DNA of 47,888 bases, taken from positions 1 to 47,888 of the forward strand of contig VBBQ01000013.1 of assembly GCA_005888755.1 (NCBI GenBank). Direction: 5' to 3'. Source of the stretch: Candidatus Bathyarchaeota archaeon. Lineage in GTDB: Archaea; Thermoproteota; Bathyarchaeia; 40CM-2-53-6. Both the position numbers and the translations under genes were made by a program. Shown here piece after piece: positions 38,265 to 47,196 of the stretch; position 1 is the stretch's first letter, and every line of letters begins with the position of its first letter. Under the pieces are notes generated by a model that was given only the letters and a program-made list of their open reading frames with translations, was not told where the DNA came from and made no database searches.

Positions 38265-38900
38265 TTACTTTCTTGCAGCCCTTTCTCCTGAAACAATGTA
38301 TGCGACACTCTCGCCCACGTAGGTGGCATGGTCAGCTATTCTCTCAAGGTATCTCAAGATCAGAGTACCGGAGATCATGCATTTGGTATCGCTGTCGGGG
38401 CTTGTCGCCGATCTCTTGACGAAATCCAAGTAGGCATCGTCCACAACGTCATCCATCTTCGGCAGCTTGCTTGCCATCTCGACATTCCGCTCTGTGAACG
38501 CCTTTATGCTCAACCGAATCATTTCCTTCGCCTGGCTACCAACACGCTCGATTGCAGTCTTGTCGCAAGTCGACAAATCGCCGAATATTCCGAATACATC
38601 TGAGATGTCATGAGCGTATCGACCGAATCTTGAGAACCCGTAGGCGACCTCCATACATGACTTGACGAACCTCAAATCAGAAGCCACGGGTTGGTATCTG
38701 GCAATTATCTCGACGGCTAGTTCGCTGACCTCGTCTTGGAGCATGCGAAGCTCCTCAGACCAGTTGTATATCCGTTCCCGGAGATCTTTTCCTTGAACAT
38801 AGGCATCTATCGCTGTCGATACTGTGTTTTCTGAGAGTTCTGCCATGTCGAGAACCATATTTCGCAGTTTCTCAAGACCCAAATCCATTAGTCGTGCCAT
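38265..38900 (-). CDS. phoU: PhoU phosphate uptake regulator
   Basis: PhoU, 211 residues, two repeats of a three-helix bundle. Landmarks: ENTVSTAIDAYVQGKDLRER, EELRMLQDEVSELAVEIIAR and YLERIADHATYVGESVAYIV. The E/D-x-x-x-D metal-binding motifs characteristic of PhoU are present in both halves. It modulates PstSCAB activity and is encoded 11 nt after pstB as the last gene of the pst operon. The second PhoU-domain protein in the region (43472) carries a DNA-binding domain, this one does not. Confidence 0.93.
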   Translation of the reverse strand: MARLMDLGLEKLRNMVLDMAELSENTVSTAIDAYVQGKDLRERIYNWSEELRMLQDEVSELAVEIIARYQPVASDLRFVKSCMEVAYGFSRFGRYAHDISDVFGIFGDLSTCDKTAIERVGSQAKEMIRLSIKAFTERNVEMASKLPKMDDVVDDAYLDFVKRSATSPDSDTKCMISGTLILRYLERIADHATYVGESVAYIVSGERAARK

Positions 38901-38911
38901 TCCGAGATCAC

Positions 38912-39727
38912 TTATCCGAACTTGCCAGTGAGGTACCGCTCTGTCAGCTCTTCCGTGGGGTTCTCGAACAGGTTTGTTGTCTCACCGTATTCGATGAGTT
39001 GTCCGAGGTAAAGGAAAGCGGTATAGTCTGACACCCTAGCGGCCTGCTGCATATTGTGAGTCACAATCACCACAGTGTACTGGTCTTTGAGATTTGTTAT
39101 CAGTTCCTCTATCTTTGCGGTGGCTATAGGATCAAGGGCCGAGCATGGCTCATCCATCAGTAAGACCTCGGGTTCAACGGCTAGAGCACGAGCGATACAG
39201 AGTCTCTGCTGTTGTCCTCCGGAGAGACTGGACCCTGATTTGTCAAGCTCGTGTTTCACCTCTTCCCAGAGAAATGCGAGGTCAAGACTTCGCTTTACCG
39301 CGCGGTCGAGTCTAGCGTGGTCTCTCTCCCCGTTTAGTTTAAGGCCGGCGGCGACATTGTCATAAACGGACATTGTCGGAAACGGGTTGGGTTTTTGAAA
39401 TACCATCCCAATCTTCCTTCTTACGCTAACGGGATCGACGCCTTTGGCGTATACGTTGGCATCATCGAGTAATACAGCTCCGGAAACCTTCGCTTGCGGA
39501 ACCAGTTCATGCATTCGGTTCATACATCGAATGAGGGTTGATTTTCCGCACCCTGACGGACCTATTATTGCGGTGACGTGGTTCTCTTTGATCCTCAGAG
39601 ACACGTCCTTGAGAACGTGGTTATTCCCGAACCAGGCGTTGAGCTTATCGGTTTGGATCTTTAACGGTTCCACCGGCCTAGATATCAGGATTGGTTTCGT
39701 ATTTTCAGCTTTCAGTTCCTTATCCAC
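38912..39727 (-). CDS. pstB: Phosphate ABC transporter ATPase
   Basis: ATP-binding subunit of the high-affinity phosphate importer, 271 residues. Walker [10 protein letters not shown] (about 56-64), signature [16 protein letters not shown], Walker [14 protein letters not shown] and switch His in [15 protein letters not shown]. The [21 protein letters not shown] region is PstB-typical. It lies between pstA (14 nt upstream) and phoU. Confidence 0.97.
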
Positions 39728-39741
39728 TTGGATGCCCAGTG

Positions 39742-40626
39742 TCAGATTCTAGACCTCACTGCCCCGTACTTGCCTCTAGTGGCAATTCGTACCGCCAAGT
39801 TCAAACATAATACTAAGACGATGAGAATCAAGGCTGCTCCCCACCCTTGTTGCTGGGCACCTGAGACATAATTTTCGCTGGAAAGAAGGAAAATTCTAAC
39901 GGGGAGCGCGTCAACTTGCTGATTCAGCCCTGAAAAGAAGTACGAACTTGTACCAATTGTCAGGAGTAGGGGGGCGGACTCGCCTGAAATCCGGGCAATA
40001 GAGAGGAGCGCTCCAGTAACGACTCCGCTTCGGGCCGTGCTTAATACTACACTTATCGTTGCTCTCCATTTTCTTATTCCGAGCGCCATGGCGGCATCGC
40101 GCACCGATCTGGGAACCAGTTTTATCGACTCCTCTGTGGTTCGAGTAACTATTGGTAACATTATGATCGATAGAGCTACTCCCCCTGCAAAAGCAGAGAA
40201 GCCTACTCTTAACCCGACGACCAAGATCGAGTAGACAAGGATCCCAATTACAATGGAAGGAAACTCGCTAAGCACATCGTTGAGAAACCTTATGCTCCTT
40301 CCAAACCTATTATCTCCGAACTCGGCGAGGTACACACCTGCAAGCAACCCGATCGGAACCGCTATGACAGCAGTTAGGCCCATCAAAACGAGCGTTCCCT
40401 CGATCGAGACCGCAATCCCACCAGCGAGAGCTGCATTTCCCGTAGGCAGAGTTACGAGGGCTGGTGTGCCAGTTAGAAACTGGACGCTTAGAGCGGTGGC
40501 GCCGTTTCTAACTACTTCAAACAAAATGCTTGCCAGTGGAATCATTGCGAGAGTTACACATAGGAACCCGAGGGAGAACGCAATTCTATCCTTGAACCTC
40601 CTCCAACTGGGAGTCGAGGTCCTCAC
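39742..40626 (-). CDS. pstA: Phosphate ABC transporter permease
   Basis: Inner permease of PstSCAB, 294 residues, six membrane helices. The EAA-type cytoplasmic loop is [19 protein letters not shown]. The frame is open to 40662, but GTG 40626 overlaps the pstC stop (GTGA), which is the natural translationally coupled start and removes a 36-nt overlap. Pairs with PstC to form the channel. Confidence 0.95.
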
Positions 40627-41654
40627 TCGACTATTCCTCCAGTTACCTTGAAGACTCTCCAAACCATCAAGCGAGCGAAAATATTGATCACGAGGGCAAA
40701 AAGGAAGAGGACTATCCCGAGTCCGAATAGGGCAGATAGGTGAAGCCCAGTAGCGTCACCGAATTCGGTCGCAATAAGGGAAGACAACGTCACCCCTCCT
40801 TTGAGGAGAGAAGTAGGAAGAACGTAGGGACCCGGGGTCCCCCCTATGACCATGGTGACTGCCATCGTTTCTCCGACTGCGCGTCCTAGCCCGAGTATTG
40901 CAGCTCCGAAAATGCCGGAGCGACCATATCGGAGGACGCCAAGCTTGACCACCTCCCACCGGGTTGCCCCAATGCTGTACGCTGCCTCTCTCTGGCTTGA
41001 GGGTACTGCCATCATCGTCTCTTTAGAGACTGATGAAACAGTTGGAATGATCATTATCGAAAGGACTAGTCCCGCTGTAAGTATGTCATAGCCCGTCGCG
41101 GTCCCATGGAAGGCAGGGATCCAACCCAGGTAAGTGGATAGTGGTGTTTCCAAGTAGTCACGGACCCAGAACCTGAAGACAAAGAGTCCCCAGAACCCAT
41201 AGATGACGCTAGGAACCGCGGCAAGAAGTTCGATGACCTGTGAAAGTGGTGACCTTAGGAAACTTGGTGCCATTTCCGAGAGAAATATCGCAATCCCTAG
41301 GCTGATTAGAATACCGACTGAAATGGCTATTCCGGCAGTCACCAAGGTTCCTAAAATGTAGGGGAGCGCCCCATATGATTCGCTACCGAGGCTTGTGTTC
41401 CAGTCTGTTCCTGTTAGAAAACCAAATCCGAACTTTCCAAACACAGCGAGCGATCCACGGGTCAAGACCACGCTCGTAACTATCAGAATAACAAGCACTA
41501 GACTGCCAATCGAGGTCGCAAGGAATTCGAAGAGATCGTCCGAAGAGAACCCTTTCAGCTTTTGAAAGAAAGTATCTGAGACCTTATCTTCTGCGCGTTT
41601 CGCAGGTGCCGCTTCCTCTGTGGTTGCCAAGATGCTAAATCTCGGGATTCCCAT
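40623..41654 (-). CDS. pstC: Phosphate ABC transporter permease
   Basis: PstC permease, 343 residues. The cytoplasmic N-terminus (about residues 1-45) is followed by six helices, with the EAA-type loop EAAYSIGATRWEVVKLGVLRYG and the periplasmic GSLAVFGKFGFGFLTGTDWN after the first helix, a PstC hallmark. Its stop overlaps the pstA start. It lies 139 nt downstream of pstS, so the operon could be read through or re-initiated there. Confidence 0.95.
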   Translation of the reverse strand: MGIPRFSILATTEEAAPAKRAEDKVSDTFFQKLKGFSSDDLFEFLATSIGSLVLVILIVTSVVLTRGSLAVFGKFGFGFLTGTDWNTSLGSESYGALPYILGTLVTAGIAISVGILISLGIAIFLSEMAPSFLRSPLSQVIELLAAVPSVIYGFWGLFVFRFWVRDYLETPLSTYLGWIPAFHGTATGYDILTAGLVLSIMIIPTVSSVSKETMMAVPSSQREAAYSIGATRWEVVKLGVLRYGRSGIFGAAILGLGRAVGETMAVTMVIGGTPGPYVLPTSLLKGGVTLSSLIATEFGDATGLHLSALFGLGIVLFLFALVINIFARLMVWRVFKVTGGIVE

Positions 41655-41793: not shown

Positions 41794-42939
41794 CTAGCTG
41801 TGAAGCGTTTGACTATTGAACGTAATACTTCGTAGGGTTGTCTCGTCGACTGTCACTACAGATTGAGGTAGCGGAACGTAGGAAAGGGGCGTAGCTTGTG
41901 CTTGTCCATCATGAACCACAAACCAGAGAAAGTTGACTAGGGCCTGAGCCTTCGCCTGTGTCATGGATGGATTCGCGTTCAGCGCTTTGTAGACCATCAT
42001 GTATGTGAGAGATGCAATCGGGTATGTTTGAGCTCCGGGCTGGTTCAACAGACTCACTGACGTCCAGTTTCCATCCCCTGTAGGGAGAGTTGAGGTGTAA
42101 TTGGAGACTGCATAACCGAGAGTTCGGAGACTTGGCGCAATGAAATTGTTTGCAGGATTCTGGATGTAGCAGTAGGTCATCTTGGGAGTTGCAGAAAGAG
42201 CGTAGTTGAGTTCTACGTAACCGATCGTGTTGTTTGTTCCCTGGATGAACCCGGCGACTCCCTGATTGCCATTTGCTCCGTACGAGTTCGGGGCCCATAT
42301 GGCGGTCTTTCCCACTCCACCGGTCCAAGTGCCCGAGGTATAGAGCCAACTGGTGAAGACGTAGGTAGTTCCGGATCCGTCCGATCGATGTGCGACCCGA
42401 ATCGGCACGTTGGGAAGAGTTACAGTGTTGAGACTTTGGATCGCCGGATCATTCCAGCTCGTGATAGCGCCCGAAAATATCCTAGCTGCTACGGTGGCGG
42501 TTAGGTTGAGACCCGACGTCTTTATCGTCGGTGCCAAGTTATACGCGATGACCACGCCGCCAATTGTCTCCGGAATTTGTACTGCAGGGCTGGTGAGTTT
42601 GGATAGATCAGTCGCAGTGAGCGGCTGGTCTGATGCCGCGAAATCGACCGTCATGGCCTCAAGTTGCGTAATACCGAAACCGCTACCCGCAGGATTATAG
42701 TTGATTTGAACGTCAGGGTTTACCCTGCTATAGTTTGTTATCGCCGCGGAGATAAACGGGTATGGAAACGTGGCACCAGCCCCGCTCAGAGAAATCGTAG
42801 ATGATGAAGATGGTTTCAATATTCCCGCAACTGCGTAGCCAGTGACACCGCTTGCCGCGGCGACGACTACTAGACTGATGATGAAAAGAGTCTTGCTAAT
42901 TCCGCCCTTTCTAACTATCCCTTCCGGACTACTTGCCAT
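41794..42939 (-). CDS. pstS: Phosphate-binding protein
   Basis: Extracellular phosphate-binding protein, 381 residues. An N-terminal membrane helix (LFIISLVVVAAASGVTGYAVAG, about 17-38) probably tethers it to the membrane. The binding fold shows LSGAGATFPYPFISAAI, the GSGFGITQLEAMTVDFAASDQPL region and RVAHRSDGSGTTYVFTSWL. No lipobox is visible. First gene of pstS-pstC-pstA-pstB-phoU. A 9-bp perfect inverted repeat lies 53-81 nt upstream of the ATG. Confidence 0.95.
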   Translation of the reverse strand: MASSPEGIVRKGGISKTLFIISLVVVAAASGVTGYAVAGILKPSSSSTISLSGAGATFPYPFISAAITNYSRVNPDVQINYNPAGSGFGITQLEAMTVDFAASDQPLTATDLSKLTSPAVQIPETIGGVVIAYNLAPTIKTSGLNLTATVAARIFSGAITSWNDPAIQSLNTVTLPNVPIRVAHRSDGSGTTYVFTSWLYTSGTWTGGVGKTAIWAPNSYGANGNQGVAGFIQGTNNTIGYVELNYALSATPKMTYCYIQNPANNFIAPSLRTLGYAVSNYTSTLPTGDGNWTSVSLLNQPGAQTYPIASLTYMMVYKALNANPSMTQAKAQALVNFLWFVVHDGQAQATPLSYVPLPQSVVTVDETTLRSITFNSQTLHS

Positions 42940-42991
42940 TACTATCCGGTGAGATGACGAAGGCTACCGAGTAATTAACAGTCTCACTGAT

Positions 42992-43020
42992 TATACTGAC
43001 TAGCTATGTATGTCAGTATA
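42992..43020. promoter_or_regulatory. Inverted repeat upstream of pstS, candidate operator
   Basis: TATACTGAC and GTCAGTATA form a perfect 9-bp inverted repeat with an 11-nt spacer that begins TAGCTA. It lies 53-81 nt upstream of pstS and overlaps or abuts AT-rich promoter-like sequence on the minus strand. A similar repeat with the same spacer length lies at the AbrB-PhoU gene promoter (43420-43444). Confidence 0.6.
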
Positions 43021-43125
43021 TCACTGTACTTCTCGGAGCGGGTGCGGATACTAATCCTTAGGATAAAGGACGACGTTAGGAAACTGGACCGTCACGCGTG
43101 TTTGCCGACGATGAGACAGTTAGAG

Positions 43126-43374
43126 CTATGGATCCCCGTTTTGGTGGATCGCTTCGGCCTTCGGCCTGTAGGCCCCTCCGGTCTCGGAGTCAACTAGCTG
43201 CCCACTCGGAGTTTTGAGAGAAAAGAACAGTTCTAACAAGCGAAAAGGCACGACCGAGGGGAGAGTTCGAAATTCGATGTCATAGGTCTCGCCGCTCTCT
43301 CCGGTATCTGGGTATACAACTACGGGTGCCTCAGAGAGGTTTTGGGGTTCTGGGACCTGACTCATCTTCTTCAT
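43126..43374 (-). CDS. Small hypothetical protein beside the phosphate operon
   Basis: Protein of 82 residues starting at ATG 43374 (MKKMSQVPEPQNLSEAPVV). It is acidic at the N-terminus with a central hydrophobic stretch (SVVPFRLLELFFSL) and a polar tail, and has no recognised domain. It lies upstream of pstS and is divergent from the AbrB-PhoU regulator. A TATA-like ACTTATTT lies about 24-31 nt upstream on the minus strand. Because it sits between the regulator and pstS, it may belong to the phosphate response. Confidence 0.5.
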   Translation of the reverse strand: MKKMSQVPEPQNLSEAPVVVYPDTGESGETYDIEFRTLPSVVPFRLLELFFSLKTPSGQLVDSETGGAYRPKAEAIHQNGDP

Positions 43375-43419
43375 CACCAAATGTATATCTTCCCGAGAAA
43401 TAAGTAGATAATCCACCGA

Positions 43420-43444
43420 GTATATAGCTAGGGTAAATATATAC
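43420..43444. promoter_or_regulatory. Inverted repeat and TATA region of the AbrB-PhoU gene
   Basis: GTATATA and TATATAC form a perfect 7-bp inverted repeat with an 11-nt spacer. TAGCTA is present at the left junction, as in the pstS site. The right arm overlaps the TATA element (AATATATAC) about 28-35 nt upstream of ATG 43472, so binding there would repress. Candidate autoregulatory site. Confidence 0.5.
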
Positions 43445-43471
43445 ATAGACCAATGGAGATAGGCTCAGCAC

Positions 43472-44512
43472 ATGAAGCAGGTCGAGCTTCGAAGGCTCCA
43501 GATGACAGGGGGAGCAAGCTATACTGTTTCTCTTCCCAAGGATTGGGTAAAAGAACAAGGTCTCAAGGCGGGAGACGTTGTAGCAGTACTTCCACGGTCA
43601 GATTCGTCGCTTACTCTGGTTCCTCACGAGAAGATCCCAGCTAATCAGAGCAAGGGCGCGGAGGTTGTGCTCGCACCTTCAAAGGATCAGGATAGAGAGC
43701 AGATATTGAGAATTGTTGTCGCTCAGTATTTGGCAGGATATGATCTCATAAGGATACGATTTCCGACAGCGTCAAGGCCTGACCTCCGGACTTACATCAG
43801 AGAGGCCGCTCGAAGGATGTTCGTTGGATCCGAGATTATTGAAGAGTCTAAGGATGAGCTGATAGTTCAGTGCCTTTCGACTTATGGTGATTTCCCCGCG
43901 CCAAAGGTAATCTCAAGAATGAGTCTCATATCCAAACTCATGCTGCGCGACGCCGTGGAATCGCTGAAGAATAGAGATACCGCCCTCTCCGAGGAGATTA
44001 TTAAGAGAGACGAGGAAGTTGACCGGTTCTATCTGTTCTTGATACGACAATTAACGATGGCTGTATTGAACCGGAGCCTGATTCAGGAGATCGGGTTGTC
44101 GGACCCCCGAGATTGCCTGGTTTATCGAGTTGTTTCGAAGAGTCTTGAGAGAATCGCCGATCACGCGACAACCATAGCAAGAACGGCCTCAGAATTGGAG
44201 GCGCCTCTTCCACATCGTCTTGTCGACGACTTGTCTAAAGTAAGCGATTTGACCAGCTTGGTTCTAGAAGATGCTCTGAAATCCTTGACGAAAGTCGACG
44301 GAACCGTGGCTAACACTGCAATCGTGTCTGCCCAAAGAGTTGAGAAGGACGCTGAAGGCGTGATGGACAAGCTCTTCGATTTCCGTCTCAACCAGAAGAC
44401 TGTTGTCGCAGTAAGGCTGGCTCTTGAGAGCTTGAAACGCATCTCTGAGTACGGAGAGGACATTGCGGAAATGACCATTAATCTGACTGCGAGGAGAAGG
44501 GAACTTTACTGA
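43472..44512 (+). CDS. AbrB-PhoU phosphate uptake regulator
   Basis: Protein of 346 residues with an N-terminal swapped-hairpin AbrB/SpoVT-type DNA-binding domain (residues 1-48, GGASYTVSLPKDWVKEQGLKAGD) and two PhoU-type helical-bundle repeats. These have ERIADHATTIARTASELEAP near 232-251 and a C-terminal SLKRISEYGEDIAEMTINL. This archaeal PhoU-AbrB architecture is generally annotated as a phosphate uptake regulator. It is plus-strand, divergent from the small gene at 43126, and close to pstS. It is the best candidate for binding the two inverted repeats. Probably leaderless from the TATA at about 43437. Confidence 0.9.
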   Translation: MKQVELRRLQMTGGASYTVSLPKDWVKEQGLKAGDVVAVLPRSDSSLTLVPHEKIPANQSKGAEVVLAPSKDQDREQILRIVVAQYLAGYDLIRIRFPTASRPDLRTYIREAARRMFVGSEIIEESKDELIVQCLSTYGDFPAPKVISRMSLISKLMLRDAVESLKNRDTALSEEIIKRDEEVDRFYLFLIRQLTMAVLNRSLIQEIGLSDPRDCLVYRVVSKSLERIADHATTIARTASELEAPLPHRLVDDLSKVSDLTSLVLEDALKSLTKVDGTVANTAIVSAQRVEKDAEGVMDKLFDFRLNQKTVVAVRLALESLKRISEYGEDIAEMTINLTARRRELY

Positions 44513-44579
44513 CAGGTCGCTATCCGACCGTTTTTCCATGAACAGTTATTTAGACGAACATTTTGTCTGAGCTTGGTAG

Positions 44580-44689
44580 GCCGGGGTCGCCTAGCCTGGT
44601 AGGGCGTCGGATTGCTAAGCCAGATTGTTGGTTGCGGAGATCCGATGGGCCTTAGGCCCTCGTGGGTTCAAATCCCACCCCCGGCGCCA
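44580..44689 (+). tRNA. tRNA-Ser(GCU) with a 22-nt intron
   Basis: Acceptor stem GCCGGGG/CCCCGGC, discriminator G and encoded CCA (44687-44689). Anticodon stem TCGGA/TCCGA (44607-44611 and 44641-44645) with anticodon GCT at 44614-44616. T arm GTGGG-TTCAAAT-CCCAC. The long variable arm GGGCC-TTA-GGCCC (44647-44659) marks tRNA-Ser. The intron 44618-44639 follows position 37. TTGC pairs with GCGG as a 4-bp helix between 3-nt bulges TAA and AGA, a canonical bulge-helix-bulge splice site. A TATA-like GTTATTTAG lies about 30-35 nt upstream. Confidence 0.95.
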
Positions 44690-44907
44690 TCAGCTTTAAC
44701 ACGCACAATCCTACAAGACTTCTAGACTTGTCTTGAATCCGCTATGCCATCAGTGACGGATTCTAAGGAATCTAAACCTCGTTCCAGCAACCCTTACCGA
44801 ATAGGATCGTGGAATTGAGAGGCCTAACCGTAAAAACCGATCCCGAGGCCTTAGCCCAGGTCTCATCTTAAATATCGGATTTACCCCGAAAATCTTCGGG
44901 GGAATCT

Positions 44908-46110: not shown

Positions 46111-47196
46111 GGAACGTGCGAACCTCACCCGTCCCCGCCGAGCCAGGATAACAGCTGCCACCCTGTCCCGGTCCATTACTATTCGACATTTTCCGCACCA
46201 GAGCTTACGTCCCAGTCTCTTGTCCGATTGGAGTCTCTCCCCGCATCTTGGACAAGTCACACTGGACCCTCTGGTCTCACGCCTAGACAGATGAATAATG
46301 GGTAGGCCTATCCAACTGGCCTTATACTCTAACTATCGCTGGGCCATACTGAAGCTCCACCCGGTCATCCTGCCCCGATGTCTTCTACCTTGCCCGTTAC
46401 CCTTCCGGTACAGACGGCGTATTCCTAGAATATCTTCCAGTACTATTGCCTGTCTCCGCTGGACCGCTGTTTCCACAACTGTCTTCGTGGCTGTGTGGAG
46501 GAGATGACCTGTCCTAGCGGTTCTGCGTTCTCCATACTTTGAGGCTAAGACCCTTCTAATCCTCGCATCGTCCCGTTTGAAAGATGCGACTATACGCATC
46601 GTAGTACTGGCTATACGCACTGTCTTCGAGAGGTCGTAGTGATGTGTCTCCTCGTCGTTTCCGACTGTGCGATTACGAAGATTACGGTCAACCCCAACTG
46701 TCGATACGCACTCTATCCCGGGAGCCTCTCGGGCGATGGAGAGGGAGAGCCTGTTCCGGGTCAGAGTGAAAGAACGCACCTCAACTCCTGGTTGAGAAAT
46801 GATCGCTAGAGTATGCTCGGTCAGGGGTAGCCTGAGATGCTTACCTCTCGATATAGGAATCTCCAGCCCCCCACTATTGACCTTGAAACCATAACAGGAG
46901 ACGAGACAGGGTCTGACAACATAAGGGATTCTAGTGGAGAAGGCTCTCCTGAGAGACTTCTTCCTAGCTGCTAGTATTCCAGCGGCCCGGGATATGGCGC
47001 AGAGCTTGTAGCAGCTGGGAGAATCATAATGGTCCAACTGATTATAGGAGAGTAGAGAGAGGCTTCTAAGCGACGACGCGTCGTTCACCAGACCGATACG
47101 TGTAGAATCGTTAACCATCCTCCTGAACACTTCCAGCAATCCTAAGACCTCGCTTGGTGGAACATAGAATTGCCCAACCGACTTTATGGACAACAC
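45997..47196 (-). pseudogene. tnpB: IS605-type TnpB with one in-frame amber codon
   Basis: RNA-guided nuclease-like TnpB, 400 codons. The N-terminal half has a helical REC/wedge region. RuvC-I is STVGVDRNLRNR, RuvC-II IVLEDILGIR, the zinc finger is CPRCGERL and CGKCRI, and RuvC-III is MDRDRVAA. All catalytic Asp/Glu positions are present. The frame is interrupted once, by TAG at 46335-46333 after GWSFSMAQR; the same frame continues LEYKASWIGLPIIHLSRRE and into the zinc finger. One point mutation, such as CAG to TAG, would explain it. No tnpA transposase is nearby. A tail with GNPTPTVIPGVD recurs in the remnant at 25414. Confidence 0.85.

Follow-up and report, generated by a model that had tools for sequence, protein, structure and literature searches.

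The DNA between pstS and the gene of an AbrB-PhoU protein in this Candidatus Bathyarchaeota archaeon carries two copies (elements 1 and 2) of one operator, which quite probably belong to a small phosphate regulon in which the AbrB-Alba-like-PhoU protein, as the most likely binder, regulates the phosphate transporters and itself. Comparison of sequences is the source for the operator, its distribution, its position at promoters and its link with AbrB-PhoU, as well as for the lack of a detectable response regulator. The window, i.e. the whole stretch of 47,888 nt that was analysed, is one contig (VBBQ01000013.1) of a 2.0-Mb archaeal genome of about 95% completeness, and the genus relatives of the host are soil Bathyarchaeota MAGs. 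On the minus strand, sequence-family matches identified pstS (41794-42939) and pstC, pstA and pstB (38912-41654), and the operon ends with a classical phoU without DNA-binding domain (38265-38900). The plus-strand gene at 43472-44512 encodes the AbrB-PhoU regulator of 346 aa, which consists of AbrB (residues 1-55), an Alba/IF3-C-like middle part (62-136) and PhoU (136-342). Between these two divergent genes a small ORF of 82 aa is placed on the minus strand (43126-43374), with a conserved YPDTGESGETYDxE motif. The AbrB-PhoU gene was present in most genomes of the genus, mostly adjoining pst, and a phosphate-transport gene occurred in the fetched flank of AbrB-PhoU at 46 of 65 other loci of the class.

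Element 1 upstream of pstS

The original prediction had drawn two matched inverted repeats in this region, and both are present, at 42992-43020 and 43420-43444. The first, TATACTGAC-N11-GTCAGTATA, is a perfect inverted repeat inside element 1, with TAC[TG]GA-N13-TC[AC]GTA as the family consensus. Counts were compared with dinucleotide shuffles of the window: at a spacer of 11 nt, perfect inverted repeats of 9 bp were seen once (0.20 expected) and those of 7 bp six times (3.8 expected), so that the first repeat is mildly unusual when taken alone and the second is not unusual. When the upstream regions of 14 family orthologs were aligned, two conserved blocks appeared in otherwise diverged DNA. 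The pstS-side block is element 1 (42983-43029, minus strand; GTACAGTGATATACTGACATACATAGCTAGTCAGTATAATCAGTGAG; PWM score 59.6), a 47-bp operator whose mean column identity was 86% among 12 genus sequences; its pairwise identity was 80%, compared with 57% in the distal flank and a shuffled baseline of 58%. This conservation shows that the repeat before pstS is a genuine cis-element. In four relatives (L041, L042, L046 and L050) the divergent gene is not pstS: a DUF47 gene takes its place, and a PiT permease gene comes next; element 1 and a TAATTAC box are retained before DUF47-PiT, with 79% identity between the pstS and DUF47-PiT groups, a pattern in which element 1 evidently tracks phosphate uptake rather than pst as such.

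The probable TATA box of pstS, TTAATTA (42972-42978, minus strand), is a conserved AT box and precedes the start codon by about 36 nt. Since element 1 is upstream of this box, it would be outside the pstS transcript. This argues against taking the repeats for RNA hairpins (of a terminator, a small RNA or a riboswitch) instead of DNA sites bound by a protein: the perfect inverted repeat of element 1 could fold as RNA, but several relatives keep the sequence and lose the perfect pairing, and we consider such a hairpin extremely unlikely.

Element 2 at the AbrB-PhoU promoter

A position weight matrix built only from the pstS/PiT promoters of related genomes gave element 2 (43412-43458, minus strand) a score of 15.0, the second best of the whole window, where the next score was 3.1; across 3.8 million shuffled positions the maximum was 12.2. 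The site is in register in the relatives and is a diverged second copy of the operator; it is oriented towards the small ORF, and the core promoter of AbrB-PhoU overlaps with it. Within it, TATATAG (43421-43427, plus strand) is invariant in the genus and forms the core of the phylum-wide CTATATAG operator, and TATATAC (43438-43444, plus strand) falls in GGTAAATATATAC, which archaeal promoter spacing marks as the probable BRE/TATA box of AbrB-PhoU, with the ATG about 30 nt downstream. The small ORF has a probable TATA box of its own, CTACTTATTT (43398-43407, minus strand).

The second repeat as first drawn, GTATATA-N11-TATATAC at 43420-43444, did not stand as a palindrome. In the upstream alignment its left TATATAG is invariant and its right arm reads TATATCC in most relatives, so that conservation does not extend to the palindrome as drawn; its occurrence in the window is also at chance level. 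Likewise, TAGCTA, which had been proposed as a common signature, is conserved in neither element, not even within the genus, and conservation also spoke against the equal 11-nt spacers as a shared signature. The repeats are thus matched in the sense that both are inside copies of one 47-bp operator, while the match does not extend to the spacers, the second palindrome and TAGCTA; at orthologous loci the pstS-side element was conserved and the second repeat, as an inverted repeat, was not. The analysis supported the idea that both sites are regulatory elements of phosphate genes and related to each other, the second site being the runner-up in the window. The general idea of the original prediction was correct, and its details of sequence were not. 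For its exact form, which takes TAGCTA and a pair of matched palindromes, each with an 11-nt spacer, as the recognition site, the presence of both strings in the host genome speaks in favour, but with TAGCTA and the second right arm not conserved within the genus, and a 7-bp repeat of this kind expected 3.8 times by chance, its probability is practically nil.

Distribution of the operator in soil Bathyarchaeia

The 47 bp of the operator form an array of half-sites, TACTG...TAC[TG]GA...CTAYRTAG...TC[AC]GTA...TCAGT. Half-site symmetry inside single sites barely exceeded permutation (4.19 vs 4.00). Model R1, a sequence-only model from 12 element-1 sequences, was searched in 18 genus genomes; beyond element 1 it gave eight weaker matches (E 1.6e-4 to 0.11), all at phosphate genes. 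Four of them were after phoU (two before a small ORF), three before extra pstS-like genes and one on the minus strand of an AbrB-PhoU promoter. Further copies of the operator in soil Bathyarchaeia precede additional pstS genes, another pst operon, the DUF47-PiT operons that stand in for pst, and genes that follow phoU. Model R2 comprised 26 sites aligned gap-free over the 47 bp and found exactly two sites in the host genome, without further regulon members there; it also found, in a different genome, a site upstream of the pstSCAB operon that had not been part of its training set. As R2 was built partly from sites found by R1, its E-values are not independent, and the out-of-sample evidence rests on R1 and the element-1-only PWM. 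Beyond the family, R2 gave only weak matches to the full 47-bp element, which is confined to one family. AbrB-PhoU promoters were also recovered with model R3, an array at the level of the class; most of the weaker R3 matches fell in AT-rich DNA, and their flanks held no recognised phosphate gene. In one relative (L126; G012:C75), operator copies stand before a diverged second pst operon and before one more pstS-like gene.

All 24 distinct sequences that were compared have an AT-rich TATA-like box behind the element, with its centre 7.5-12 bp past the element end; these boxes belong to pst, PiT and small-ORF promoters. A site just upstream of the TATA box is the usual binding place of archaeal activators that aid TBP/TFB.

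The small ORF at 43126-43374 had no match in Pfam or NCBIfam when the window copy was scanned. It belongs to a previously unnamed family of small proteins that share a conserved YxDTGESGETYDxE motif and are about 60-110 aa long; some relatives have two copies. The family occurs at two different places of phosphate loci, one of them after phoU (L049, L051 and L070), always behind the operator.

The operator word across Thermoproteota

A close AbrB-PhoU was found in 114 of 189 Bathyarchaeia genomes. Outside the family, CTATATAG was present in 36 of 65 AbrB-PhoU upstream regions of Bathyarchaeia, where shuffles predicted 0.6; several of these 65 regions come from the same genus and they are not fully independent. 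Among 198 promoters of other genes from genomes of the same class, used as controls, none had the word, and TATATAG occurred in 91% of AbrB-PhoU promoters vs 3% of controls in Bathyarchaeia. A generic TATA box as the identity of CTATATAG was ruled out by these control promoters. The conserved words might also be mere core promoter (BRE/TATA) without a specific regulator: TATATA looks like a TATA box of archaea, and element 2 overlaps with the TATA region of AbrB-PhoU. Against this stand the 36 of 65 AbrB-PhoU promoters with CTATATAG vs 0 of 198 controls, and the position of element 1, which is 47 bp long, upstream of a separate conserved AT box; this explanation is very unlikely.

In other Thermoproteota, CTATATAG was found in 20 of 41 AbrB-PhoU promoters (0.5 by shuffling), including 6 of the 15 in whose flanks no pst gene was recognised. 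Of six pst operons unlinked to AbrB-PhoU, one had a clear CTATATAG upstream and two had related words. The family's 47-bp element and the phylum-wide CTATATAG are related only via the shared CTAYRTAG/TATATAG core. That the operator word follows AbrB-PhoU's own gene points to autoregulation by AbrB-PhoU. Whether the AbrB-Alba-like-PhoU protein is a phosphate regulator throughout Thermoproteota, which would read a CTATATAG-type operator, control pst/PiT and itself in place of PhoR-PhoB, and in soil Bathyarchaeia also drive the YxDTGESGETYDxE small proteins, seems to us an evenly balanced question.

The host genome also encodes two AbrB-PhoU paralogs (G000:C10:82511-83515 and G000:C12:61959-62936); one has a thioredoxin-like and a CDC48-like gene as neighbours, and the other an HflX-like GTPase gene. 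The operator could be real and yet have a different binder, either an unlinked transcription factor or one of the AbrB-PhoU paralogs, so that the adjacent AbrB-PhoU gene would only be a target. The paralogs elsewhere in the genome lend this some weight, as does the fact that regulator genes can be regulon members without encoding the binder. On the other hand, the operator word occurs at AbrB-PhoU promoters phylum-wide, even away from pst, as autoregulation predicts, and no full operator copy was seen in the promoters of the two host paralogs (C10 and C12); we therefore regard a binder of this kind as rather unlikely.

A possible mechanism

With the adjacent regulator as the preferred binder, the divergently encoded AbrB-Alba-like-PhoU protein would act as a one-component regulator that binds the operator and reads phosphate status through its PhoU domain. 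When phosphate is scarce, AbrB-PhoU on the operator would activate (or derepress) the transporter promoters. The position of element 2 over the probable AbrB-PhoU TATA box suggests self-repression: by covering this box, AbrB-PhoU may repress its own gene, and element 2 may meanwhile serve the promoter of the divergent small ORF. We infer the identity of the binder, phosphate status as the input via the PhoU domain, and the sign of regulation.

The AbrB-PhoU protein

The original prediction had also described the neighbouring gene as encoding AbrB and PhoU domains, which holds: Pfam recognised an N-terminal DNA-binding domain (MazE_antitoxin/AbrB, residues 10-54, E 1.3e-8) and two PhoU stretches, and comparison of the predicted model (mean pLDDT 86) with PhoU crystal structures gave a Z of 27. 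The AbrB region of the model had low confidence at its first strand, which is expected for a swapped dimer folded alone. The middle domain (residues 62-136; 43655-43879, plus strand) adopts an Alba/IF3-C fold in the predicted model, with Z of about 10 and rmsd of about 2 A to archaeal Alba proteins. The scores against IF3-C and SepF proteins were only slightly below those of Alba, which indicates the fold rather than Alba membership. No Alba sequence-family match was found for this domain (Pfam at E 0.001 returned only PhoU and MazE_antitoxin), and hence only an Alba/IF3-C fold is claimed. A list of chromosome-associated proteins of Thermococcus includes TK2245, a SpoVT/AbrB-PhoU protein (PMC7325993).

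As in other members of the SpoVT/AbrB family (AbrB, SpoVT, MazE), the swapped-hairpin-type domain is N-terminal; it differs from them in that AbrB is fused here to Alba-like and PhoU domains and linked to phosphate transport. Autoregulation is common in this family.

Comparison with known phosphate control systems

Bacteria control their phosphate genes by a sensor-kinase pair. The proposal that the host manages without a two-component system agrees with our searches, in which the host genome (about 95% complete) had no match to the response-regulator receiver PF00072 or the PhoB-type winged helix PF00486, whereas most control genomes were positive. The locus resembles PhoR-PhoB with PstSCAB-PhoU in that conserved sites are directly upstream of the pst promoters and a classical phoU still ends the pst operon. 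It differs in that the searches detected neither a response regulator nor a winged helix of the PhoB type, and in that the candidate regulator combines AbrB and PhoU in one chain.

The nearest precedent is the haloarchaeal PhoU regulators with pho-boxes. Haloarchaeal PhoU2 (Haloferax volcanii HVO_2374) has a DNA-binding domain and synteny with pst (PMC6267482), and in Halobacterium salinarum, according to work cited in PMC6560208, pho-boxes were needed for pst induction. Common to both cases are a DNA-binding domain fused to PhoU, a short motif at pst promoters and synteny with pst, the last of which was found in the window and in most genus orthologs; the notion of phosphate control through a PhoU-type transcription factor is also shared. 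However, the present proteins are from another phylum, and the operator appears to be a different one. The operator described here is also found before PiT, extra pstS genes and small ORFs, and across Thermoproteota it marks the regulator's own promoter. The predicted model of AbrB-PhoU has an Alba-like middle domain.

The searched literature, which left out most subscription journals, held no account of this operator or of a Thermoproteota AbrB-PhoU regulon, and for most archaea other than haloarchaea the papers searched gave no worked-out scheme of phosphate sensing or of the switching of uptake genes. An operator, a regulon and a candidate regulator, traced from Bathyarchaeia to other Thermoproteota, make phosphate control directly testable and offer a candidate phosphate-responsive promoter module that would require no two-component system.

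Other features of the window

An RNA element was rejected as a candidate, the sole Rfam match in 42700-44800 being a tRNA. Downstream of AbrB-PhoU, a tRNA-Ser(GCT) gene with an intron in the anticodon loop is located at 44580-44689 (plus strand); it was missed by the default tRNA search and found when introns were allowed. A TnpB-related ORF (IS200/IS605 accessory; 46333-47196, minus strand) gave a weak NCBIfam match and is possibly a remnant.
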